DNA from: Bacilli bacterium
GTDB taxonomy: Bacteria; Bacillota_I; Bacilli_A; RF39; UBA660
Reading direction: 5' to 3'
Assembly: GCA_017472015.1 (NCBI GenBank)
Contig: JAFURC010000037.1
Span: 1 to 32,820 of the forward strand
DNA length: 32,820 nt
The translations under genes and the position numbers were made by a program. The first letter of the stretch is position 1; each line of letters starts with the position of its first letter. This document shows, piece after piece, positions 2 through 22,367 of this stretch. The notes beneath the pieces are model-generated. The model did not search any database, had not been told where the DNA came from, and worked only from the letters and a program-made list of their open reading frames with translations.

Positions 2-1492
2 AAAATGGAAAATGCAATGCCTAGTACTGGAGTGAAAAAAATATATTTTTATACTCCAAATCCTGTAATGCAAACAGAAGAATCAGGAACGGGAGTTCTT
101 GGAAAATGTGAAAATTTATTTGGTTCTGAAGATTATGATGAAGGAACGACTGCAACAACTTTTTGTCAAGGAACTGGAACAATGGATGGATATGATATTA
201 ATTTTTTGGGACACATGCTCATTCTATCAGAAGGAGATACTCTATTATTAGAAGAGGAAATTTTTCTAAAAAAAGATATATACTCTGCAGAAATAGTATT
301 AAATCCCGCAATGCAAACAGATGAATCAGGAACGGGAGTTCTTGGAAAATGTGAAAATTTATTAGGTTCTGAAGATTATGATGAAGGAACAACTGCAACA
401 ACTTTTTGTCAAGGAACTGGAACTTCTAATGGAAAAACTATATTTGAAAAAGCTAATGAAAATGATATTATGTTAAGTTTATTTTTAAGTTATGAATTTT
501 TAGTATCAAAAACAGATTTACCATATTTTGAATTTACTATAAGTGGAAAGAATACCTATAAACAAAAAGATATTTGGTATGATGTCGTATTAAATCATGG
601 AGATGTACCAGAAGGAAAATTAGAAGAAAATCGCATAAATGATGAATCTTTAAGATTTGCTTTATTAGAAGTAAATGGTGAAAATCAAAAAAATATTTTT
701 AATAATAGAAGTTATTCAAGTTTAGAAAATAAAAGAATTCATGTTGAAACAATACCTAAAAATACTATGAATGAAATTAATAAAACCTATCGTTTATATA
801 TGTGGATTGATGATAGTGTTGTAATTGGTAATGTTAATGAAGACTATACAACCGAAGAATGGAAAGATGTATTTGCAAGTATTAAAGTAAGTGTAACCGG
901 TGACTTTAACGAAAAAAACTATACAGATGAATCATGTTTTGAAACTCAAGTAGTCAGCAATTATATTCATAATTCTAATATTACTGAAGATCAAATTAAT
1001 ACGTGCGTATCTTATATAAGTGATAAAATTAGTTTATATGAAGAAGAAAATTATGAAGCGTATTGTGCAGGCACAGGAACGGGAAATGGTGCTACTTTGG
1101 AAAATGGATTAAAAAGAGGTTGGCAATTCACAGATGATGATGTAATTTATTTATTGGAAAATAATATAATTTTAAAATCTAATGACAGTATTGCAATTAC
1201 CGATTATGATGAAAGTTGTGGAAGTGATGTAATAATACCAAATAAAATAAATGGATATGAAGTAACAGAAATTGTTGATTCTGCATTTAACGATAAAAAT
1301 ATTAAAAGTGTTATTTTGCCTAATACTATGAAGGTTATTCGAGGTAATGCATTTACAGATAATCAAATTTTAAGTGTAAAAATTCCATCTTCGGTTAGTT
1401 ATTTATCTTGCCATGCTTTCTATATGTTTCAAGAGACTGTTACCATTGAAAAAGAAGAAAATTTAGTATGTGTTGAGGATATAATGATGTAA
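2..1492 (+). CDS. Repeat-containing surface protein with TasA-like module and BspA-type leucine-rich repeats (5' end outside window)
   Basis: The reading frame is open to the window edge and no signal peptide is visible, so the true start probably lies upstream; residues here are counted from the ATG at 5. Two copies of a 41-residue Cys-containing unit (about residues 19-59 and 100-140) contain GTGVLGKCEN and end in FCQGTGT. A third, degenerate FC.GTGT-like copy lies near residue 355 (YCAGTGTGNG). Residues about 172-300 form a module also found in the DGR target gene at 17219-19378, with the shared block KTYRLYMWIDDSVVIGN. The C-terminus, about residues 400-480, has BspA/LRR_5-type repeats (VILPNTMKVIRGNAF, VKIPSSVSYLSCHAF), a family usually seen on cell surfaces and in adhesins. 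Adhesion or interaction at the cell surface is inferred. A hairpin terminator follows. The gene ends cleanly at TAA. Confidence 0.7.
   Translation, partial: KMENAMPSTGVKKIYFYTPNPVMQTEESGTGVLGKCENLFGSEDYDEGTTATTFCQGTGTMDGYDINFLGHMLILSEGDTLLLEEEIFLKKDIYSAEIVLNPAMQTDESGTGVLGKCENLLGSEDYDEGTTATTFCQGTGTSNGKTIFEKANENDIMLSLFLSYEFLVSKTDLPYFEFTISGKNTYKQKDIWYDVVLNHGDVPEGKLEENRINDESLRFALLEVNGENQKNIFNNRSYSSLENKRIHVETIPKNTMNEINKTYRLYMWIDDSVVIGNVNEDYTTEEWKDVFASIKVSVTGDFNEKNYTDESCFETQVVSNYIHNSNITEDQINTCVSYISDKISLYEEENYEAYCAGTGTGNGATLENGLKRGWQFTDDDVIYLLENNIILKSNDSIAITDYDESCGSDVIIPNKINGYEVTEIVDSAFNDKNIKSVILPNTMKVIRGNAFTDNQILSVKIPSSVSYLSCHAFYMFQETVTIEKEENLVCVEDIMM
58..180 (+). repeat. 123-bp direct repeat, copy 1
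   Basis: Matches 301-423 with five single-base differences and no gap, so about 96% identical. The unit encodes a Cys-rich 41-residue segment of the surface protein. The spacing is 243 bp, in frame, so unequal recombination would delete or add 81 codons without a frameshift. Confidence 0.92.
301..423 (+). repeat. 123-bp direct repeat, copy 2
   Basis: Second copy of the unit at 58-180. The differences (T>C, T>C, A>T, T>A, G>A) are not restricted to adenine, so this pair looks like an ordinary duplication rather than a DGR template/variable pair. Confidence 0.92.
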
Positions 1493-6103: not shown

Positions 6104-7882
6104 ATGAGTAAAATACAAGTAATGGATACTAGTTTAGCAAATAAAATAGCAGCTGGTGAAGTAGTTGAAAAAACTATGAATGTTGTTAAAGAATTAGTTG
6201 AAAATTCAATTGATGCTAAAGCTAGTGTAATAAAAATTGAACTAATTGATAGTGGTGTTAAAGAAATTAAAGTAGTTGATGATGGAATAGGAATGGATGA
6301 AAATGATGCAGTACTCGCATTTTCTCGTCATGCAACTAGTAAATTAAAAACTTTAGATGATTTATTTAATATTAATTCTTTAGGTTTTCGTGGAGAAGCC
6401 TTACCTTCGATTGCTAGTGTTTCTAACATTTTACTTAAAACTAGTGATGGAAAAACCGGTACTATTGTAAGTTTAGAAGGTGGAATAGTTAAAGAAGTAA
6501 AGTCTGGTGATATTAAAAGAGGAACAACAATTATCGTTTCTAATTTATTTTATAATACCCCGGTTCGCTTAAAATATTTAAAAAGTTTATACACAGAACT
6601 TGCAAATATTACTGATTATGTAAATAAAATGGCACTTAGTTACCCAAATATTAAATTTATTTTAATTAATAATGGTAAAGAACTTTTAAATACTAGTGGT
6701 AATGGAGATTTATTAAAAACCATATTAAATATCTATGGTAATATAGTTGCTAGCAAAATGATGTATATTGAATCAGAAAATGATGATTACATGATAAATG
6801 GATATATCTCATATCCTGAGTTAACTAAAAGTAATCGAACTTCTATGACCCTTCTTGTTAATAACCGCGTTGTTAAAAATAATGAAATAATAAAAACAAT
6901 ATTAGAAGCATTCCATACTTATATTCCAAAAGATAGATGTCCTTATATTGTTTTAAATATTGAAGTTGATCCTTTCTTAGTTGATGTAAATGTTCATCCA
7001 ACTAAAATGGAAGTAAAATTTTCAAAAATTGATTCCTTACAGAGTTTAATCTATGAAACGATTACTAATAAATTAAATGAAAAAACTTTAATTCCAAAAG
7101 TTATGAATGAATTTGTTGAAGATAATTATTATAAAGATACAAAAGAAACTAATTTTTTTGTAAATGATAATTTATATGAAAACGAAGAAAAGAAAGAATT
7201 GGTTGAAAAAAAACAGGTTGAAGAAATAACCTTTGATTTTGATACTTTTAGTACTAAAGAAGAAATAAAAGATGATGAAGTAGTTATTCAAGAAGATAGT
7301 CGTATTAAAAACATGTATCCAATTGGAATAGTTCATGGAACTTATATAATATGCGAAAACGATCATGGTATGTTTATAATTGATCAACATGCAGCAGCCG
7401 AAAGAATTAATTATGAAAAATATTATCATGCTTTAAGTACTCATTCTAAAAATACAATTGATGTTTTAATCCCTTATCAAATTGAATTAACAAGTAATGA
7501 ATATTTAATTTTAGAAAAAAACTTTCATATTTTAGATAGACTAGGTTTTAAATATGAAGAATTTGGTTCGAACACAATTATTATTAGAACCCATCCAACT
7601 TGGATACCTAAATATGCTCCTCTTGAAGCAATTATGAAGATAATTGATATCATTATTTTAAATGAAGATTTTGATGAGGATAAATTTAATGAAAAAGTGT
7701 CAATTACACTAGCATGTAAAATGAGTATTAAAGCTGGAGATGTTATTACAATGCCTGATATGACTTACTTAATTGAAGAGTTAAGGAAGACTAAAAATCC
7801 TTTTACTTGTCCTCATGGAAGACCAACCATTATTGCATACACCAAGTATGATTTAGAAAAATTATTTAAAAGAGCAATGTAG
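6104..7882 (+). CDS. mutL: DNA mismatch repair protein MutL
   Basis: Couples mismatch recognition by MutS to strand removal. The N-terminal GHKL ATPase shows KIAAGEVVEK, ELVENSIDA, DDGIGMDEND and GFRGEALPSI, with a transducer region to about residue 320. A Lys/Glu-rich linker (about 325-395) follows, then the C-terminal dimerisation/endonuclease domain with DQHAAAERINYE, ACKMSIKAGD and CPHGRPT. These are the metal-binding motifs of nicking-competent MutL in organisms without MutH. 592 residues is typical. Its usual partner mutS is not in the window; upstream are fic and the unknown gene instead. It is followed 8 bp later by an unknown gene and then miaA, probably one operon driven by the module at 6039-6092. 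Confidence 0.97.
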   Translation: MSKIQVMDTSLANKIAAGEVVEKTMNVVKELVENSIDAKASVIKIELIDSGVKEIKVVDDGIGMDENDAVLAFSRHATSKLKTLDDLFNINSLGFRGEALPSIASVSNILLKTSDGKTGTIVSLEGGIVKEVKSGDIKRGTTIIVSNLFYNTPVRLKYLKSLYTELANITDYVNKMALSYPNIKFILINNGKELLNTSGNGDLLKTILNIYGNIVASKMMYIESENDDYMINGYISYPELTKSNRTSMTLLVNNRVVKNNEIIKTILEAFHTYIPKDRCPYIVLNIEVDPFLVDVNVHPTKMEVKFSKIDSLQSLIYETITNKLNEKTLIPKVMNEFVEDNYYKDTKETNFFVNDNLYENEEKKELVEKKQVEEITFDFDTFSTKEEIKDDEVVIQEDSRIKNMYPIGIVHGTYIICENDHGMFIIDQHAAAERINYEKYYHALSTHSKNTIDVLIPYQIELTSNEYLILEKNFHILDRLGFKYEEFGSNTIIIRTHPTWIPKYAPLEAIMKIIDIIILNEDFDEDKFNEKVSITLACKMSIKAGDVITMPDMTYLIEELRKTKNPFTCPHGRPTIIAYTKYDLEKLFKRAM

Positions 7883-8592: not shown

Positions 8593-9455
8593 AAATAGTT
8601 GTAATAATAGGACCAACAGGAGTTGGAAAAACTAAACTTAGTATAAGTCTTGCAAAAAAAATGAATGCTGTTATTATGAATGCTGATAGTATGCAAGTAT
8701 ATAAAGAACTCAATATTGGAACAGCCAAAATTAAAGAAAGTGAAAAAGAAGGAATTAAGCATTATTTATTTGATATATGCGAAGTAGGTGATGATTATAA
8801 TATTTATAAGTATCAAAAAGATGGAAGAAAATTACTTGATGAATTTATTAAAAATAATCAAAATGTTATAATTGTTGGGGGAAGTGGGTTGTATATTAAG
8901 AGTTTGTTGTATGATTATAAATTTCAGGAAGAAGAAATAAATGAAACTTATGATAATTTAACTAATGAAGAAATACTTAAAGAGATTAAAAAATATCATG
9001 AAACTAGTATTCACGTAAATAATCGTAAAAGACTTGTAAGAGAGTTGAATAAAATAAAAAATAGTAATCAAGTTACTAGTGATATTAATAAAAAATTATA
9101 TGATTTTAAAGTAATTGGTTTAACTTGTGATCGAGAAAAATTATATGAAGTAGTTGATAAACGCGTTGATTTGATGGTTAAAGAAGGATTAGTAGAAGAA
9201 GTTAAAAATTTATATGATCGAAATATTCATAGTAAATCAATTCAAACAGGAATTGGTTATAAAGAGTTATATGAATATTTTAAAGGTAATATAACAAAAG
9301 ATGAAGCAATAGATTTAATTAAGAAAAATACAAGACATTTTATAAAACGTCAATATACATTCTTTAAACATCAAATGGATGTTAATTGGGTTATGACTGA
9401 TTTTGATAATTTCAAAAATACAATTAATGAGGCTTTAAAAATAATTAATGAATAA
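8589..9455 (+). CDS. miaA: tRNA dimethylallyltransferase
   Basis: Transfers the dimethylallyl group from DMAPP to A37 of tRNAs reading UNN codons. P-loop GPTGVGKT at residues 7-14, then ADSMQVYKELNIGTAK (substrate-binding Asp/Ser), HYLFDICEVGDDYN, VGGSGLYIKSLLY and QTGIGYKEL with the C-terminal RQYTFFKHQ. 288 residues is slightly short for the family (about 300) but all core motifs are present. The start overlaps the preceding stop as ATGA and has GGGAG upstream. Last gene of the mutL operon; a terminator follows at 9465. Confidence 0.96.
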   Translation: MKIVVIIGPTGVGKTKLSISLAKKMNAVIMNADSMQVYKELNIGTAKIKESEKEGIKHYLFDICEVGDDYNIYKYQKDGRKLLDEFIKNNQNVIIVGGSGLYIKSLLYDYKFQEEEINETYDNLTNEEILKEIKKYHETSIHVNNRKRLVRELNKIKNSNQVTSDINKKLYDFKVIGLTCDREKLYEVVDKRVDLMVKEGLVEEVKNLYDRNIHSKSIQTGIGYKELYEYFKGNITKDEAIDLIKKNTRHFIKRQYTFFKHQMDVNWVMTDFDNFKNTINEALKIINE

Positions 9456-9464
9456 TTATATAAG

Positions 9465-9500
9465 TAGTTAGAATTATTAAGTTTGATTTTAACTATTTTT
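9465..9500 (+). terminator. Terminator after miaA
   Basis: A 10-bp stem (TAGTTAGAAT with ATTTTAACTA, one G-T pair), 11-nt loop and T5. Confidence 0.65.
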
Positions 9501-9537
9501 ATTTTGAGTAAACTTCACAAAAACTACACAAAATAAT

Positions 9538-9564
9538 TTAGCACTCCTAGTTGACAAGTGCTAT
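9538..9564 (+). promoter_or_regulatory. CIRCE operator (HrcA binding site)
   Basis: TTAGCACTC, a 9-base spacer, then AAGTGCTAT. The left arm is a perfect match to the CIRCE consensus TTAGCACTC-N9-GAGTGCTAA; the right arm differs at its first and last base. It encloses the -35 box of the htpG promoter, so bound HrcA would block RNA polymerase. Repression by HrcA with release on heat shock is established for CIRCE generally. Control of htpG by CIRCE is less usual than of groE or dnaK. Confidence 0.9.
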
Positions 9565-9579
9565 TTTTGGTGTTATGAT
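9551..9579 (+). promoter_or_regulatory. SigA-type promoter of htpG-hsp20
   Basis: Consensus TTGACA at 9551-9556, a 17-base spacer and TATGAT at 9574-9579. The -35 lies inside the CIRCE spacer and right arm. Confidence 0.9.
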
Positions 9580-9614
9580 TAATTTGTTAAGTGATTAAAC
9601 AAGGAGGAAAATAA

Positions 9615-11489
9615 ATGAAAAAAGAATTTAAAGCAGAGTCTAAAAAACTTTTAAATATGATGATTAATTCAATTTATACAAACAAAGAAATATTTTTAAG
9701 AGAGTTAATTTCAAATGCAAGTGATGCAATTGATAAATTACATTATTTATCACTAACAAATGGAGATTTAAAAGTTAATAAAGATGAATTAGAAATAAAA
9801 ATAGAACTTGATAAGGATAATCGTACCATTAAAATAATTGATAATGGTGTTGGAATGACCATGGATGAACTTGAAAATAATTTGGGTACTATTGCTAAAA
9901 GTGGATCAGAATTATTTAAAGAAGAAAATAGTGATAGTAAAAATTTAGAAATAATTGGACAATTTGGTGTTGGATTTTATTCAAGTTTTATGGTATCAAA
10001 TGAAGTTAGTGTTTTAAGTAAAAGTATAAATTCAAATGATGCTTATCTTTGGAAGAGTAATGGAAGTGACGGGTATACTATTGAACCTAGTGAAAAAGAA
10101 GAAAATGGAACTGTTATTACTTTATATTTAAAAGAAGATACAGAAGATAATAATTATTCAGAGTTTTTAGAAAATTATACTATTGAAAGAATTGTTAAAA
10201 AATATTCTGATTATATAAAATATCCAATTAAAATGGAAGTTAGTCGTGAAGAAGAAGATGAGGAAACTAAAGAAAAAAAGAGTGTAGTTGAACTAGAAAC
10301 TTTAAATAGTATGACTCCTATTTGGAAGAAAAAACAAAAAGATGTAAGTGATAGTGAATATAATGATTTCTATACTGATAAATTTTATGACTATGAAAGC
10401 CCTTTAAAAGTTATTAAAAGTGAAGTAGAAGGGCTTACAAGTTATCAAGCCTTAATGTTTATACCAAGTCATGCACCTTATAATTATTATACAAAAGAAT
10501 ATGAAAAAGGATTAATGTTATATTCAAAGGGTGTAATGATCATGGATAAATGTGCTGATCTTTTACCTGATTATTTTAGTTTTGTTAAAGGAATTGTTGA
10601 CTCAGAAGACATAGAACTTAATATATCAAGAGAAACTATGCAACAAGATAAGCAAATTAAGTTAATTGCTAAAAGTATTGAAACAAAGATTAAAAAAGAA
10701 CTTGAAAATTTATTAAAAGAGGATAGGGATAACTATATTAAATTTTATGATTCATTTGGGGAACAATTAAAATATGGAATTTATTCAAGTTATGGAATGA
10801 ATAAAGAATTACTAGAAGATTTACTACTATTCTATTCATCATATGAAGATAAACATACAACATTATCTGAGTATGTAGATAGAATGGATGGAGATACAAT
10901 TTATTATGCATCAGGTGAAACAGTTGATAAGATTAAAATGATGCCAGCAGTAGAAGATGCAACTCAAAAAGGAAAAGAAGTATTATTCTTAACTAATTAT
11001 ATAGATGAATTTGTAATAAAAACAATTGGTAACTATAAAGAAAAGAAATTTATGAATGTATCAGATTCTAACTTTGATTTATCAAGTGAAGAAGAAAAAG
11101 AGGAATTAAAGAAAGTAAATGAAGAAAGTAAAGATTTATTTACTTCAATGAAAAATGTTCTTGTAGATAGTGTTAAAGATATAAGATTTACAAATCGCCT
11201 AAAAAATCATCCAGTTTGTTTAATAACTGAAGGTGATGTATCTCTTGAAATGGAAAAAGTTTTAAATGCTATGCCAAATGGTGATAGTGTTAAAGCAAAT
11301 AAGATTATGGAAATTAATGAATCACATCCAATTAGCAAGAAATTAAAAGAATTGCATAAAAATAACGATCGAGAAACCCTTGAAAAATATACTAAAGTTT
11401 TATATAATCAAGCTCGTTTAATAGAAGGATTAAGTGTTGAAAATCCACGTGAAATAACTGATTTAATTTGTGAAATTATGAGTAAATAA
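9615..11489 (+). CDS. htpG: Molecular chaperone HtpG (Hsp90)
   Basis: ATP-dependent dimeric chaperone of the cytoplasm. The N-terminal GHKL ATPase shows RELISNASDAIDKL, IDNGVGMTMDELENNLGTIA and GQFGVGFYSSFMV. The middle domain has the catalytic-loop region NISRETMQQD, and the C-terminal dimerisation region ends near MSK. 624 residues is full length. AAGGAGG lies 8 bases before the ATG. The gene sits under a consensus promoter overlapped by CIRCE and is followed 38 bp later by a small heat-shock protein gene with no terminator between, so both belong to one HrcA-controlled unit. Confidence 0.97.
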   Translation: MKKEFKAESKKLLNMMINSIYTNKEIFLRELISNASDAIDKLHYLSLTNGDLKVNKDELEIKIELDKDNRTIKIIDNGVGMTMDELENNLGTIAKSGSELFKEENSDSKNLEIIGQFGVGFYSSFMVSNEVSVLSKSINSNDAYLWKSNGSDGYTIEPSEKEENGTVITLYLKEDTEDNNYSEFLENYTIERIVKKYSDYIKYPIKMEVSREEEDEETKEKKSVVELETLNSMTPIWKKKQKDVSDSEYNDFYTDKFYDYESPLKVIKSEVEGLTSYQALMFIPSHAPYNYYTKEYEKGLMLYSKGVMIMDKCADLLPDYFSFVKGIVDSEDIELNISRETMQQDKQIKLIAKSIETKIKKELENLLKEDRDNYIKFYDSFGEQLKYGIYSSYGMNKELLEDLLLFYSSYEDKHTTLSEYVDRMDGDTIYYASGETVDKIKMMPAVEDATQKGKEVLFLTNYIDEFVIKTIGNYKEKKFMNVSDSNFDLSSEEEKEELKKVNEESKDLFTSMKNVLVDSVKDIRFTNRLKNHPVCLITEGDVSLEMEKVLNAMPNGDSVKANKIMEINESHPISKKLKELHKNNDRETLEKYTKVLYNQARLIEGLSVENPREITDLICEIMSK

Positions 11490-16931: not shown

Positions 16932-17039
16932 ATGGGTAAAATAATTTGTAAATCAATAAAAAATTCAAAAAAAATCAAAAAAAGTCATATTTTTTTAACA
17001 AAAAAAGTTGACTCAGAGTCAACCATGGGGGGGGTATAA
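16932..17039 (+). CDS. Possible 35-residue Lys/Ser-rich peptide
   Basis: ATG 16932 to TAA 17039, with AAGGAAGG at 16911-16918 (13 bases from ATG, longer than ideal). The peptide is basic (KSIKNSKKIKKSHIF) and ends in TMGGV, where the two Gly codons and the final Val codon come from the G8 tract. A change of one G would shift the frame at the very end. No family recognised. It could be spurious, because the palindrome at 17007-17023 lies inside its 3' end. Confidence 0.25.
   Translation: MGKIICKSIKNSKKIKKSHIFLTKKVDSESTMGGV
17007..17034. repeat. Perfect 17-base palindrome followed by a G8 tract
   Basis: GTTGACTC-A-GAGTCAAC (17007-17023), then CAT and eight G (17027-17034). On the plus strand it is preceded by a run of A. 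On the minus strand the hairpin is therefore followed by T7, the form of a minus-strand terminator. A G8 run is conspicuous in such AT-rich DNA. Confidence 0.7.
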
Positions 17040-17147
17040 ATTATTATTTTGTAAATAAAATAATAACAAAAAACGACAAAATAAATACATAGAAAATGGT
17101 AAAATTAATATAAATTGTCATTCTTTTATGTGTTTTTATTTTAATAC

Positions 17148-17176
17148 TTGTAAAAGAATAAAATTTATATTATAAT
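17148..17176 (+). promoter_or_regulatory. Promoter P2 of the DGR target gene
   Basis: TTGTAA (17148-17153), 17-base spacer, TATAAT (17171-17176), about 40 bases before the ATG at 17219. Confidence 0.75.
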
Positions 17177-17218
17177 TAAATTACAATCAAGGGGCTAGGC
17201 AAAAATAGGAGGAAAGAA

Positions 17219-19378
17219 ATGAAAAAGAAAACAAAAACTTTAATACTAAGTATTGTAGTTACTTTAGTATTAATATTAACATTTATGATTTCATATGCAG
17301 CATTTGTATACAGACAAACAGGCGAGAATAACCAACAATTAGTACTAGGTGATATTTACATGCATTATAATGAAACAACAACAACGATAGACATCGATAA
17401 CATGATACCAATGAGTAAATTATCAGTAAATACAAGTGATGAAAAAGTAACCTTATGTGTTAATTATTTATATAACACATATGGAGCCGAATGGAATGGA
17501 CTGTATGGAGATTTAGTTCAGGACCAATTCAATAATTATAGCAATATAACTGGCAGTTTTATGGCTAATGATGCAACATACACAAATTACTGTGGTGGAG
17601 GAATAATTAAAATATATCCAGCCCCAAGTTCTTCAAGTAAAAATGAATATGTAGTAAGACCAATCAATGAATTTGCAGAACCAATAGAAGCAGTTGTCCC
17701 GATAAGAACAACACAAATTTTAACAGACTTTGAAAATGGAGTATTAACAGAAATCGATAAAGCATACTTCTTAGAAAACGAAATAATAATTGATAATATA
17801 AAAAATCTTGAATACTTTGAATTTTTAGTATCAGGAAAAAATACTAATACTAAAGGAAGTATTTTGTATAGTATTCAACTAGCAGAAGGTGAGGAACCAG
17901 TTCAAGAAGGGGAATCAATCCTTAATCGAATCGAACCAAGTTTTTTAAGGTTTAGATTAACTGAAGTAAATGGTGATGAAGAAACTATTTTAAAAGATAA
18001 TCAAGTATTTGATTCTTTTGAAAATGCTAATTTATATACAAGTATAATTTCTAAAAATACGACAAATAAAATCAATAAAACCTATCGTTTATATATGTGG
18101 ATCGATGATAGTGTAGTAATTGGAAATACAAGCGAAGCTAATTATTCAATGGAAGAATGGAATAGTTTGTATGCCAGTGTAAAAGTAAATGTAAATGGAA
18201 AATATGTAAAGGCAGAACCTTTAAGTGAAAAAGTTAAAAGTAAATTAGGATCTGAAGGAGTAGTAGCAGTTAATACCGATGGCGATTTATATGATGGAAC
18301 AGGAGAAATAAGAGAATATCGCTATTCTGGAATTGGTAACTATTGTACTTATACAGATGGTGAAAATGATTATAATATGAGTGTTGAAGGGGAAACTTGT
18401 CCAACAAGTGTTTGTCAAATAGCAGCACTAGCCGGAAATGCAATTTTCTCAAATACTAGTGATGGTGTATTATTGTACGGCTCATGTGCTGATAATGATG
18501 GTACAGAACTACCATTAAAAGTTGAAGGAAGTACGCCAATTGATTCAGGACTTCGTAATTATGTAGAATTTAATGGTGAACTTTGGCGAATAGTCGGAGT
18601 TTTTGGAGATAATGTAAAAATAGTTAAAGATACTCCTTTAACCAACGATATATACAATGAAGAAACATATACATCTGGGGAAACAACATACGAATTAAAA
18701 TTTACAACTGAAGGAACCAAATATGGATATTTTATTTACAACTATCCAACTGAAGGATATCAAGGGACTAATTTAAATGACTGGACTAATTCTGGAGCAA
18801 TGCATTACTTAAATGATGAAACAGGAAATAGTTATTATGCAAATAATTTGTCAACAGAAGCAAAGTCAATGCTTGAACAAGCAACATATAATTTAGGAAA
18901 TGTAAGTGTAGATAATGATATGTGGTTTGTTTCAGGAACAGCCAAAGAAGTTTATGAACAAGAAAGAGGAACTGTTATATGTGGAAGTAATGTAACAAGT
19001 TGGAGTAATGAAAATAACTGTAATATATGGAATGGGAATCAACCAACTTGGACAGGAGAAATAGGACTTTTATATCCAAGTGACTTTGGATATGCGTCAA
19101 ATAGTAATAATTGGTCAACAAACATGGGTGATTATTATCATAATGGTGGTAGTTTAAATAACTGGATGTTTAACACTGATACAGCCTTTACTTGGTTTCT
19201 CTCTCCGTCCGCGTATATTCCTTATTATGTGCTTGTATCCGGCAACTATGGTAATGTCGGTGATGACTATGCTAACCGCAATGGCTCTCTTCGCCCAGTC
19301 CTTAATCTAAAATCTCAAGTCATGACTACAGGTGGAGATGGAAGTTATTCTACACCATACACTTTGATTATTGAATAA
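17219..19378 (+). CDS. DGR target: predicted surface protein with TasA-like module and C-terminal variable lectin-like domain
   Basis: 719 residues, ATG 17219 with AGGAGG 6 bases upstream. Residues about 6-28 form a hydrophobic export segment ending ISYAAFVYRQTGEN, like SipW-dependent TasA/camelysin-type signals, so the protein is probably secreted or surface-bound. Residues about 30-325 form the module shared with the gene at the left edge (KTYRLYMWIDDSVVIGN near 286). The C-terminal domain, about 440-719, is rich in Trp, Asn, Gly and Tyr (ELWRIVGVFGDN, IGLLYPSDFGYASNSN) and ends with GSLRPVLNLKS and a GGDGS...PYTL tail. This resembles the C-type-lectin/FGE-like folds that carry DGR variable repeats. 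The VR covers residues 660-694 and 11 residues there differ from the template-encoded ones: 666, 667, 669, 670, 673, 675, 677, 682, 683, 684 and 687. Ligand unknown; binding variation is inferred. Confidence 0.93.
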   Translation: MKKKTKTLILSIVVTLVLILTFMISYAAFVYRQTGENNQQLVLGDIYMHYNETTTTIDIDNMIPMSKLSVNTSDEKVTLCVNYLYNTYGAEWNGLYGDLVQDQFNNYSNITGSFMANDATYTNYCGGGIIKIYPAPSSSSKNEYVVRPINEFAEPIEAVVPIRTTQILTDFENGVLTEIDKAYFLENEIIIDNIKNLEYFEFLVSGKNTNTKGSILYSIQLAEGEEPVQEGESILNRIEPSFLRFRLTEVNGDEETILKDNQVFDSFENANLYTSIISKNTTNKINKTYRLYMWIDDSVVIGNTSEANYSMEEWNSLYASVKVNVNGKYVKAEPLSEKVKSKLGSEGVVAVNTDGDLYDGTGEIREYRYSGIGNYCTYTDGENDYNMSVEGETCPTSVCQIAALAGNAIFSNTSDGVLLYGSCADNDGTELPLKVEGSTPIDSGLRNYVEFNGELWRIVGVFGDNVKIVKDTPLTNDIYNEETYTSGETTYELKFTTEGTKYGYFIYNYPTEGYQGTNLNDWTNSGAMHYLNDETGNSYYANNLSTEAKSMLEQATYNLGNVSVDNDMWFVSGTAKEVYEQERGTVICGSNVTSWSNENNCNIWNGNQPTWTGEIGLLYPSDFGYASNSNNWSTNMGDYYHNGGSLNNWMFNTDTAFTWFLSPSAYIPYYVLVSGNYGNVGDDYANRNGSLRPVLNLKSQVMTTGGDGSYSTPYTLIIE
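19196..19298 (+). repeat. DGR variable repeat (VR)
   Basis: 103 bases matching the TR at 21385-21487 (offset 2189) with 13 substitutions and no gaps. The substituted positions are 19214, 19218, 19223, 19226, 19236, 19241, 19242, 19247, 19262, 19265, 19268, 19277 and 19278. Every one is an A in the TR: seven became T, five G and one C. The invariant 3' end GGCTCTCTTCGCCCAG (19283-19298) is the likely initiation-of-mutagenic-homing (IMH) segment. The first base after it differs (T in VR, C in TR). Confidence 0.97.
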
Positions 19379-19410
19379 GGTTTCCTTGAGGGGTTACTCC
19401 TCAGGAAACC
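19379..19410 (+). other. Strong stem-loop directly after the DGR target stop codon
   Basis: GGTTTCC + TGAGG (19379-19391, one bulged T) pairs with CCTCA + GGAAACC (19399-19410): 12 bp with a 7-nt loop. A short T5 begins 9 bases further on, so it may terminate the target transcript. Hairpin or cruciform structures 3' of VR assist retrohoming in the Bordetella phage DGR. Here the distance from VR is about 80 bases, longer than in that system. Confidence 0.75.
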
Positions 19411-19464
19411 CCTGGAAATTTTTGTGAGTAAAAAATAAATAGATACTAAATAAAGAGATGAGTA

Positions 19465-19506
19465 GGTTAATCCAAGGCAAAGTCTAAAGACTTTGTCTTG
19501 GTAACC
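19465..19506 (+). other. Long stem-loop between target and DGR accessory genes
   Basis: GGTTA, a 2-base bulge and CCAAGGCAAAGTC pair with GACTTTGTCTTGG and TAACC around a TAAA tetraloop: about 18 bp with one G-T pair. It is followed by A-rich DNA rather than T, so a simple terminator role is unlikely. It could be a cruciform site, a structured RNA element or a processing site before the accessory operon. Confidence 0.75.
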
Positions 19507-19571
19507 AAAAAATGGATCACAAAAATAATTGTTAACTACTTTTCTTTGCGCAAATAATGAAAGGTAGAATT

Positions 19572-19928
19572 ATGGGTAATGTTAAAATTAGAAAAATAGG
19601 AACATTTTATAATGTATTTGATGATGATTGTTATATATTGTATTTCTTTTTTAATTATAATATTAAAAATAATAAAGTTGGATTTCCTAAATCGGCTTTA
19701 AATAAAGTTATTAATAAACTTGAAGAATTTAAAATAAATTATGAAGTAATTGGAGATTGTAGTAATAATTTTAAAAACTTAAATAAGTATAGTAAGTATT
19801 TAAAATTAGGATTTGAAAAATATAATAAAGATATAAAATATACTAATATAATGGAAAAATTAGGTAAAGCAAGTAATTTGAAATTAGAAAAAATATTAAT
19901 GAATATTGAGGAAATACTTGATGAATGA
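19572..19928 (+). CDS. DGR accessory protein resembling MutS domain I (MSL type)
   Basis: I start at ATG 19572, preceded by AAAGG (19560-19564) with a 7-base gap. The ATG at 19557 has no such site. 118 residues. The N-terminal half (KIGTFYNVFDDDCYILYF, then VGFPKSALNKVINKLEE and INYEVIG) follows the pattern of the MutS mismatch-binding domain (G-x-FYE-x-F-x-x-DA ... GxP ... L ... ), including an aromatic residue in the FYE position. Small MutS-like proteins (MSL) have been reported as DGR accessory genes, mainly in Firmicutes. It overlaps the next gene by 8 bases and so belongs to the MSL-Avd-RT operon. Role unknown; involvement in cDNA/VR heteroduplex handling is an inference. Confidence 0.6.
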   Translation: MGNVKIRKIGTFYNVFDDDCYILYFFFNYNIKNNKVGFPKSALNKVINKLEEFKINYEVIGDCSNNFKNLNKYSKYLKLGFEKYNKDIKYTNIMEKLGKASNLKLEKILMNIEEILDE

Positions 19929-20262
19929 TAAATTTAAAATAGCTAGATATATTAAAGATTTTATAATTATCCTTGATGATTATTTAGTTAATTATCCTAA
20001 AAAATATTTTGAACTTAGAAATAGATTAGTAAATGATAGTTATGAATTATTAGAACTTGTATATCTTGCAAATTACATGGATAATTTAGATAGAAAAAAT
20101 ATTCAAATTAAATCTTTGATGAAAATAAATATAATTGATTTTTATATTGAAGAAAGTTATAAAAAAAGAATTATCAGTGAAAAACAAAGTATTAAATTAA
20201 GTAATAATTTACTTATTATTAATAAAATGATTTATAAATGGGTTCAAGATGAAAAATGCTGA
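19921..20262 (+). CDS. avd: DGR accessory variability determinant-like protein (Avd)
   Basis: Avd is a small basic, pentameric four-helix bundle that binds the DGR reverse transcriptase and TR RNA and is needed for cDNA synthesis in the Bordetella phage system. ATG 19921 is chosen over TTG 19906 because GAGG lies 9 bases before it. 113 residues, predicted all-helical, with Avd-like segments: YFELRNRLVNDSYELLELVY, a middle helix with IQIKSLMKINIIDFYIEE, and the C-terminal NLLIINKMIYKWVQ ending in the Trp that this family often carries. It overlaps its neighbours on both sides (8 and 14 bases), so it is translated together with the MSL protein and RT. Confidence 0.75.
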   Translation: MNDKFKIARYIKDFIIILDDYLVNYPKKYFELRNRLVNDSYELLELVYLANYMDNLDRKNIQIKSLMKINIIDFYIEESYKKRIISEKQSIKLSNNLLIINKMIYKWVQDEKC

Positions 20263-21358
20263 AATAAAAGATTTACTTGATATTTATGATTTAGAAATAA
20301 GAAAGAATTGTCGAAATAAACGGAAAATTTATAATTTTGAAAAAAATAAAATGCAAAATATAAGTTATATAAAATACTTACTTGAAAATGATTTATATTA
20401 TCCGAGACATTATAATATTTTTATAATAAGAGATCCAAAATATAGAATTGTTATGTCTTTAAATATAAGTGATAAAATAATTAATCATTATCTGGCAAGA
20501 CATGTATTAATAGAAAAACTTGATAAATATTTAGATTTTCGCTCTGTTGCTACAAGAAAAGGGTATGGGAGTGATTATGGAATTAAACTTGTTAAAAAGT
20601 ATCTTGAAAAGAATAAGAAGAATGGTTTATTTTATATATTAAAAATAGATATTAAGAAATATTTTTATAATATTGATCACGGGGTTTTAAAAAGTTTATT
20701 AATTAATGAATTAGATGAAAGTGAATATTTATTATTAAGTCGAATAATTGATAGTACTGATTCTAATTATGTTAATTTATCTATTCAAGAAAAAATTCAA
20801 GAGGAAATTCTAAAAAGACCAAGAGATTATTTAAAAATAAAGGATTTACCAATTTATAAAAAAGGAAAAGGATTAAGTTTAGGGGCTATGACTAGTCAAT
20901 TTTTATCTATTTTTTATACTAATAGATTAATTCATTATATTGTTCATGATTTAAAACTTAAATATACAATTATATATATGGATGATATTATTATTATGCA
21001 TAAAGATAAAGATTATTTATATAAATGTTTAGATGAAATTAAAAGTATTATAAATTCTGATTTAAAATTAGAAATTAATGAAAAGAAGACTAAGATTGTT
21101 TCTAGTTATGAAGGATTTACTTTCTTAGGTTATAAATTCTTTATTAGAAATAATAAAACAATTATGAAAATAAAAAAAGATACTTTGGTTAAAGTTAAAA
21201 GAAGAGTTAAGAAAATAAAATATTTATATGATAAAGAGTATATTTCTTTTGAAAAAGTTTTTTGTAGTTTAAATACTTATTTATATAGTTTTAAATATGT
21301 AAGTAATTTTAAAGTAGTAAAAATAGTCAACAAATATTTTTTTAGTTATTATGGGTAA
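20249..21358 (+). CDS. Diversity-generating retroelement reverse transcriptase
   Basis: 369 residues. RT fingers and palm motifs are visible in order: RDPKYRIVMSLNISDKIINH, KGYGSDYGIKLVKKYL, LKIDIKKYFYNIDH with the first catalytic Asp at 134, LSLGAMTSQFLS (211-217 is LGAMTSQ) and IIYMDDIIIMHKD with Y243-M-D-D246, followed by INEKKTKIV and FTFLGYKF. LGxxxSQ in motif 4 is the DGR signature where group II intron RTs have QGxxxSP. No maturase or endonuclease domain follows, as expected for DGR RTs. The ATG overlaps avd by 14 bases. The template repeat begins 26 bases after the stop. It copies TR RNA with misincorporation at adenines and delivers the product to the VR of the gene at 17219-19378. 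Confidence 0.96.
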   Translation: MKNAEIKDLLDIYDLEIRKNCRNKRKIYNFEKNKMQNISYIKYLLENDLYYPRHYNIFIIRDPKYRIVMSLNISDKIINHYLARHVLIEKLDKYLDFRSVATRKGYGSDYGIKLVKKYLEKNKKNGLFYILKIDIKKYFYNIDHGVLKSLLINELDESEYLLLSRIIDSTDSNYVNLSIQEKIQEEILKRPRDYLKIKDLPIYKKGKGLSLGAMTSQFLSIFYTNRLIHYIVHDLKLKYTIIYMDDIIIMHKDKDYLYKCLDEIKSIINSDLKLEINEKKTKIVSSYEGFTFLGYKFFIRNNKTIMKIKKDTLVKVKRRVKKIKYLYDKEYISFEKVFCSLNTYLYSFKYVSNFKVVKIVNKYFFSYYG

Positions 21359-21384
21359 ACTCTTAAAAATAAGTTGAGTTGTTA

Positions 21385-21487
21385 TTTCTCTCTCCGTCCG
21401 CGAATAATCCTAATAATGTGCTTGAATCCAACAACAATGGTAATGTCGGTAATAACAATGCTAACAACAATGGCTCTCTTCGCCCAG
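21385..21487 (+). repeat. DGR template repeat (TR)
   Basis: 103 bases, invariant donor for the VR at 19196-19298. Read in the VR frame it encodes an Asn-rich stretch (NNPNNVLESNNNGNVGNNNA), mostly AAT and AAC codons, whose first two adenines are the mutable positions; AAY can become many residues but never a stop. 31 adenines lie between 21403 and 21487 and 13 of them differ in the present VR. The TR is downstream of RT and not itself part of an ORF with a start site. It is G+C-richer than its surroundings. Confidence 0.96.
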
Positions 21488-21611
21488 CCCTTTATTATTT
21501 GAATATTTGATTAAGGTTTAATATGAATATGTAAAGGACAAGTTTATCCTTGATTTTATCAGAAAGGAAATATAGATAGTTTAGGATACGTCTTTAAACT
21601 TATAACTATAT

Positions 21612-21881
21612 ATGAGTAAATTTAAAAGATATTTATTTGTTAAAAAAAAGTATCCTGATTATGTTGTGTTTATTTTATCTAAGAATAAATTAATTACTTA
21701 TAATAGGGATTTAGAAATTTATAATTATTTAAAAAAGGATTTATTCAAATTAAATATTAATTATATAATAGTTGATAATTTGGAATTAGAAATTTATAAA
21801 TTTAAACATAATAACTATTTTTACTACTTTAAACTTATTTTGTGTTTTGAGATAATTAAATATATTAAAAATAACTATTAA
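21612..21881 (+). CDS. Small uncharacterised protein following the TR
   Basis: 89 residues, ATG 21612, without a good ribosome-binding site. Basic and Tyr/Asn-rich. The segment KKKYPDYVVFILSKNKLITY, then NRDLEIYNYLKKDLFKLNIN, faintly follows the start of MutS domain I (K-x-YPD-x-x-x-F ... D-x-x-I ... L), in which case it could be a second MSL-like protein cognate to the one at 19572. That link is weak. It lies within the DGR island, between the TR and an XRE regulator with its own promoter, so association with the DGR is plausible from position only. It may also be a decayed gene. Confidence 0.5.
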   Translation: MSKFKRYLFVKKKYPDYVVFILSKNKLITYNRDLEIYNYLKKDLFKLNINYIIVDNLELEIYKFKHNNYFYYFKLILCFEIIKYIKNNY

Positions 21882-21911
21882 ATGATTTTTTTACAATTGT
21901 TTAATTTTTTC

Positions 21912-21940
21912 TTGATTAATTTCAAATATTTATATACAAT
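21912..21940 (+). promoter_or_regulatory. Promoter of the XRE regulator
   Basis: TTGATT (21912-21917), 17-base spacer, TACAAT (21935-21940). Confidence 0.6.
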
Positions 21941-21956
21941 TTAGGTGGTGTTAAAT

Positions 21957-22214
21957 ATGAGAAAAGAAAAAAGTAATTATACTGATCGTGAAAAGAGACT
22001 TATGGAGTTAGAAGATTTATTTGTTTCAGAGTTTGTTAAACTTCGTCATGATAATGGTTTAACTCAACAAAAAATGGCAGATAGTGCTAATGTAATTAGA
22101 GAAACAATTGCAAGAATTGAAAATAAAATTACATCTCCGCAAGTAAATACTTTAATTAAAATTTTAGAACCTCTTGGATATACAATTAAAATCGAGAAGA
22201 TAAATAAAAAATAA
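21957..22214 (+). CDS. XRE-family helix-turn-helix regulator
   Basis: 85 residues from ATG 21957, which has AGGTGGTG 6 bases upstream; the open GTG at 21945 lies within that site and is rejected. The HTH covers about residues 27-80: FVKLRHDNGLTQQKMADSAN, then VIRETIARIENKITSPQVNT and LEPLGYTIKIEK. The short N-terminal extension and the C-terminal LGYTIKI are typical of HigA-type antitoxins and small phage-like repressors, but no toxin gene is adjacent. It has its own promoter and terminator, so it is a stand-alone regulator at the edge of the DGR island. Whether it controls the DGR is unknown. Confidence 0.88.
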   Translation: MRKEKSNYTDREKRLMELEDLFVSEFVKLRHDNGLTQQKMADSANVIRETIARIENKITSPQVNTLIKILEPLGYTIKIEKINKK

Positions 22215-22234
22215 TAAAGTAATAAAAATGAATT

Positions 22235-22272
22235 ACAAGATCAAAAAAATAATTTTGTTCTTGTTTTCTTTT
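22235..22272 (+). terminator. Terminator after the XRE gene
   Basis: ACAAGATCAAAA (22235-22246) with TTTTGTTCTTGT (22253-22264), one mismatch, 6-nt loop, then a T-rich tract. Confidence 0.75.
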
Positions 22273-22289
22273 CAAAAGTTCGTTATAAT
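22261..22289 (+). promoter_or_regulatory. Promoter of parE-parC
   Basis: TTGTTT (22261-22266), 17-base spacer, TATAAT (22284-22289). The -35 is inside the right arm of the preceding terminator. A leader of roughly 70 bases follows before the ATG at 22368. Confidence 0.7.
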
Positions 22290-22367
22290 ATTAATGAAAA
22301 AAATGTATGGAAGATAATTGGTACTAGGAATAGTATTATTTTTGTCTTTAAAATTAGGAGTGATAAA

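Follow-up and report, generated by a model that had tools for sequence, protein, structure and literature searches.

In the diversity-generating retroelement (DGR) of Bordetella phage BPP-1, arranged as mtd/avd/TR/brt, a template repeat (TR) is copied into a variable repeat (VR) with changes specifically at adenines, by a reverse transcriptase (RT) with an SQ motif and with Avd; the repeats have related ends, the initiation of mutagenic homing sequences IMH and IMH* (PMC6642488), the spacer after the TR folds, recruits RT-Avd, and primes the cDNA (PMC12875486), and a hairpin/cruciform located no more than 35 bp from the VR is needed for homing (PMC3240598). Other described DGRs have the TR downstream of the RT, the "group 2" arrangement of the DiGReF survey of 2012 (PMC3521204), encode a small MSL accessory protein (PF01624; PMC10053308), or carry their VRs in DUF6273 domains, as do the targets of Faecalibacterium prophages (PMC11792537) and Tentaclin, whose DUF6273 domains have been modeled as C-type-lectin-like (PMC10743442). 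Multiple VRs or TRs are already known (PMC6642488). Our analysis of a 32,820-nucleotide stretch of DNA (JAFURC010000037.1, positions 1 to 32,820, assembly GCA_017472015.1; here called the window), part of a 1.33-Mb metagenome-assembled genome of an uncultured gut member of the Bacilli, leaves hardly any doubt that it contains a genuine DGR on the bacterial chromosome, between gatB and gyrase genes. At the sequence level, this is supported by an RT of the DGR type, a protein of the Avd family, a VR altered at template adenines only, a covarying RNA directly 3' of the TR, and a DUF6273-like surface target.

The TR (21385 to 21487; all DGR features given here are on the plus strand) begins 26 nt past the RT stop codon, and it aligns with the VR (19196 to 19298) over 103 nt without gaps and with 13 mismatches, each of which is an A in the TR (7 A>T, 5 A>G, and 1 A>C). 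This pair had been proposed in a first-pass annotation by a model, and its coordinates, its counts, and the 26-nt gap were reproduced. For all 13 mismatches to fall at A, given 31 A's among 103 TR positions, the hypergeometric P value is 1.9e-8, a statistic favored by the 103-nt end point, since both non-A mismatches of the longer homology (to 19306 and 21495) sit at the 3' edge, just outside. Lengthening the pair to 111 nt, the end of detectable homology, adds TR 21488 C>T and 21493 T>A, so that 13 of 15 mismatches are at A (P = 8e-7). As that annotation also stated, every change is at codon position 1 or 2 of the 719-amino-acid target (13/13 on recounting), a pattern that is partly due to the codon makeup of the TR, with 29 of its 31 adenines at these positions. 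In the target frame, no A>N change turns a TR codon into a stop codon, and A-to-N variation of the TR would allow about 10^17 proteins. Adenine-specific TR/VR pairs were seen again in dozens of related loci; most of the named relatives are uncultured Bacilli of rabbit, ruminant, or other gut origin. In the top repeat pairs of 46 such loci, scored symmetrically, 41% of template A's differed compared with about 6% of C's, G's, and T's, and this contrast is understated because several of the top pairs are not TR/VR pairs.

The RT (20249 to 21358; 369 amino acids) has the motifs LGAMTSQ and YMDD, as annotated earlier, and matches the families RVT_1 (1.8e-17) and phrog_1423 (1.6e-58). Its best match among solved structures is 8ub7 (1e-15), labeled only "reverse transcriptase" in the results table, which we take to be the BPP-1 DGR enzyme; group II maturases match at 6e-5. 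The SQ motif is common to the annotated DGR RTs of BPP-1, Anabaena, Prosthecochloris, and Acaryochloris, whereas an RT adjoining cas1 carries QGxxxSP. The avd gene (19924 to 20262) overlaps the genes for both the RT and the accessory protein MSL1, and its product, previously called Avd-like, indeed matches phrog_3206 (3.1e-10); matches to two further families, NF033474 (2e-6) and PF22296 (5e-4), were below the cutoff. Were the TR/VR pair an ordinary duplication, resulting from gene conversion or representing a decayed target copy, the RT would have come from a retroelement of another kind, for example, a group II intron; the RVT_1 match and a below-cutoff match to the group II RT family fit such an origin. 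We give this explanation almost no weight, since every difference falls at an A of one copy (P = 2e-8) and the bias is repeated in dozens of loci, and since the RT has the SQ motif, an adjacent Avd, and 8ub7 as its best PDB match; it scores 79 bits against the group II RT family, for which the cutoff is 300, and none of the RTs in the genome exceeds that value.

The target gene (17219 to 19378) encodes a 719-amino-acid protein with an N-terminal hydrophobic segment (signal or anchor), a middle region shared with paralogs, and a C-terminal DUF6273-like variable domain that contains the VR. DUF6273 was matched by 6 of the 26 target domains of relatives (best, 4.5e-8), and the target family is large in the genome, with 36 protein matches spread over many contigs. 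The location of the VR in a DUF6273-related domain, reported to be C-type-lectin-like, is shared with the Faecalibacterium prophage and Tentaclin DGRs; their targets, however, are phage receptor-binding proteins, whereas the target here belongs to a family of bacterial surface-protein paralogs. One paralog, which has N-terminal regions in common with the target, is encoded at window positions 2 to 1492; it contains a 123-nt duplication (58 to 180 and 301 to 423) as well as leucine-rich repeats of the BspA type and is apparently not a VR carrier. A GC-rich hairpin (19379 to 19411), a candidate for a homing hairpin/cruciform or a terminator, directly follows the target stop codon, with about 80 nt separating it from the upstream VR. 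It is near identical to the hairpin after one target of a sister locus, C11, and strong hairpins follow most of the other targets examined. BPP-1 likewise has a hairpin beyond its VR, but within 35 bp.

The first-pass annotation had called the DGR complete; all of the components it named hold, but it overlooked a second gene for a MutS-domain-I-like protein (21612 to 21881) and a conserved structured RNA (21503 to 21615), which, like the BPP-1 spacer, lies 3' of the TR. This spacer/Sp-like RNA comprises a P1 helix with the loop TTAAGG, the conserved sequence AAAGGACA, a P3 hairpin, and a P4 helix closing P5, with the loop ATACGT. In model-free swap tests with 26 copies, the flanks of TTAAGG paired at 6.27 of 7 positions within sequences and 4.65 across sequences, and those of ATACGT paired at 6.08 and 3.37 of 7, respectively; for both loops, none of 5,000 permutations was equally good. 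A covariance model with five helices and a hand-set structure found 49 copies in 73 sources, including the L106-L122 clade that had been left out of model building, and the window RNA scored 81.6 bits. Among 41 distinct rows, 90.6% of cells were paired, 25 of 29 pairs had changed on both sides, and covariation was 0.651 compared with 0.194 after shuffling (0 of 500 shuffles as good), while sliding the partner positions reduced pairing to 36 to 52%; these figures lean upwards, as the alignment was fitted to the hand-set structure and the sequences are related, whereas the swap test is independent of this alignment. RNAalifold found only 4 pairs in the first alignment, which was out of register at P1, accounting for this result. 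Rfam 15 had no relevant match at E values up to 1 within positions 17000 to 22300.

By analogy, the RNA probably corresponds to the spacer RNA of BPP-1, which RT-Avd binds and which primes the cDNA. It might instead regulate translation of the second MutS-like protein, MSL2, whose ATG lies inside the last 4 nt of the RNA model in the window, in C11, and in two other loci (L162 and L171). We consider this very improbable: the RNA keeps its place next to the TR in loci with the MSL2 gene elsewhere, and orphan modules have the RNA without MSL2. The distance from the TR to the RNA is 9 to 39 nt in 25 of 26 loci, the TR alignment of the other being truncated, and the RNA adjoins the TR whether the TR is downstream of the RT, as in the window, or upstream of MSL1. 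The TR and the RNA, found side by side wherever the TR sits, therefore behave as a portable template module. Across the genus, there were 21 RNA copies in 11 of 17 genomes, several of them on contigs without a nearby RT; two loci (L053 and L074) have one RNA copy on either side of the RT.

Other arrangements of these modules were also seen. In locus L083, template repeats that differ from one another are arrayed in tandem downstream of one RT, together with four RNA copies (9112 to 11174); its TR at 9112 and the VR at 6779 are identical at 75 of 76 non-A sites and differ at 13 of 31 A sites. TR and RNA modules whose fetched stretch lacks an RT were found in L164 (4334 to 4446), L165 (608 to 720 and 939 to 1051), L163 (5270 to 5384), L162 (8958 to 9072), and L166 (5927 to 6047). 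It is possible that these RT-less modules serve as trans-acting templates; for the orphan-template TRs of one genome (G013), no clean VR partner was found among the fetched loci.

MSL1, encoded at 19572 to 19928 with an ATG behind AAAGG (alternative start at 19557), is a small MutS-domain-I-like protein, and its earlier description as MutS-like is right for the family: MutS_I (PF01624) was matched by 20 of 35 members (best, 6.1e-8), whereas the window protein alone has no Pfam match. All 35 sequences have Phe at position 9, in alignment with the Phe that MutS wedges into mismatches; two residues farther on, where MutS has Glu, the commonest residues are N, S, I, H, and Y, and Glu is not among them. 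MSL2 (21612 to 21881; 89 amino acids), whose start codon is at the 3' edge of the RNA, is predicted to be a second protein with the MutS domain I fold. Its model reached a pLDDT of 95 with an alignment (43 from the single sequence), and when candidates from Foldseek were realigned by VIA, the first 28 structural matches were all domain I of MutS or MSH3 (Z, 6.8 to 4.9; root mean square deviation, 2.2 to 2.8; 59 to 67 residues), the next, unrelated entry having a Z value of 2.4. Foldseek itself was not significant (best MutS match, E = 0.13), and since Z values below 8 may reflect a common arrangement, the assignment of MSL2 depends on the sharp gap in Z and on its MutS-like neighbor. Assignment by sequence alone was dropped for want of a convincing match: MutS_I was matched weakly by 1 of 28 members (E = 0.03), and the profile match to MSL1 was 12.5%. 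Both proteins are present in 27 of 29 close relatives, and the MSL2 gene is kept with the cassette in relatives although its position varies.

Both MSL1 and MSL2 are without the ATPase, the clamp, or any other MutS domain, and the host has a full-length MutS (998 bits) and MutL, the latter encoded about 9 kb upstream of the target gene (6104 to 7882). The presence of a MutS-like pair beside an intact host MutS/MutL favors a role on mismatched heteroduplex, and the most likely function, judged from sequence and predicted fold, is that MSL1 and MSL2 act on the mismatched heteroduplex during homing. As they have no ATPase or clamp domains, they may shield the heteroduplex from host MutS/MutL, a guess that we hold to be rather less probable than not. 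A serious competitor, though itself short of probable, is that MSL1 and MSL2 have no action on mismatches but use the MutS domain I fold as scaffolds that bind RNA or the RT. The absence of all other MutS domains, the loss of the Glu of the F-x-E motif, and the use of HRDC or no such protein by other DGRs (PMC10053308) are consistent with scaffolds, whereas the invariance of the motif Phe in MSL1 speaks against them, although this residue may be structural.

In the DGR that we propose, the TR and the 3' RNA would be transcribed as one, and the RT-Avd complex would bind the RNA and prime cDNA from it, as in BPP-1. TR adenines would be miscopied into the cDNA, which would then replace the VR, aided by the common 3' end of the two repeats and perhaps by the hairpin past the target stop codon, so that a loop of the surface protein could take on up to about 10^17 sequences. 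MSL1 and MSL2 might then handle the mismatched heteroduplex, perhaps hiding its mismatches from host MutS/MutL. A broader speculation, which we advance as tentative and rather unlikely in full, is that gut Bacilli harbor a DGR lineage in which a two-protein mismatch module (MSL1 and MSL2, possibly a mini-MutS heterodimer) guards or steers the heteroduplex against host MutS/MutL and in which portable TR-RNA modules, some of them in arrays or not linked to an RT, allow one RT to serve many templates in trans.

Several results count against the interpretation of the locus as a DGR or of its parts. The TR/VR pattern of the window was found in 0 of 16 other genomes of the genus and on no viral contig, and no second strain was found for comparison of the VR. 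The RT tree has long branches, includes no true reference for group II introns or retrons, and links the family only weakly to the reference DGR RTs; in it, the family forms a well-supported clade of its own, and annotated DGR RTs fall only in an unresolved group. The window target and MSL1, searched alone, match no family; the hairpin, with its terminator-like tail, could be a terminator; folded alone, the window RNA has a minimum energy no better than that of shuffled sequences (z = -0.58); and the priming role of the RNA is an analogy with BPP-1.

The genome has three further RT loci (C11, C38, and C32). C11 shares the gene order of the window and has a single TR for two VRs, which lie in two targets; between these VRs, 18 of 36 template-A sites differ, as do 2 of 74 other sites. 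Its RT (G000; L036, 2745 to 3844) is frameshifted near residue 312, which is either an assembly error or decay; no damage is apparent in its TR, RNA, and two VRs. C38 (G000; L037, 5674 to 10541) is a degraded DGR with a split RT, an ATPase-like gene between the RT pieces, and two similar repeats in its target. C32, whose TR lies between the target and avd, represents a separate lineage. The damage to C11 and C38 would fit a decayed remnant in the window, too, with a TR/VR pair recording past homing by a cassette that is now inactive. Such decay appears improbable for the window, where all genes are intact and the RT motifs are kept, there is no non-A drift within the 103-nt pair, the TR is stop-proof in frame, and the RNA scores highly in the covariance model.

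Compared with BPP-1, the genuine DGR that we favor here is chromosomal rather than phage borne, has a DUF6273-like target and two MutS-domain-I-like proteins, and has its TR after the RT instead of between avd and brt, so that the 5' end of the TR RNA adjoins the RT gene and not avd. The order target-MSL-Avd-RT-TR had been put forward as an architecture of its own; it does not differ from DiGReF group 2 (PMC3521204), and 122 DGR cassette patterns have been recorded (PMC6642488). A small MutS_I-like protein is likewise part of the cassette in the MSL DGRs (PMC10053308); the loci close to the window keep a second, sequence-diverged protein in addition. Beyond group 2, relatives of the window have the covarying RNA, which moves together with the TR as a unit. 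What appears to be new here is the covarying RNA beside the TR and the second protein with the MutS domain I fold, while the gene order, MSL, and multiple VRs or TRs are already known; no description of either was found in the literature searched, which left most subscription journals outside. Together with the host MutS/MutL, the two conserved proteins make the passage of mismatched DGR cDNA past mismatch repair testable. The template-tied RNA family offers a route to DGR templates that is independent of the RT, and it suggests that templates are able to move, multiply, and sit apart from the RT.

A phage origin of the locus was considered and rejected, as no close relative was found in IMG/VR or phage records, where the best phage RTs were about 27 to 32% identical, and as the neighboring genes include gatCAB, mutL, hsp90, and gyrase genes. 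The window also encodes a small helix-turn-helix (HTH_3) protein (21945 to 22214), a possible regulator, between the DGR and gyrB.

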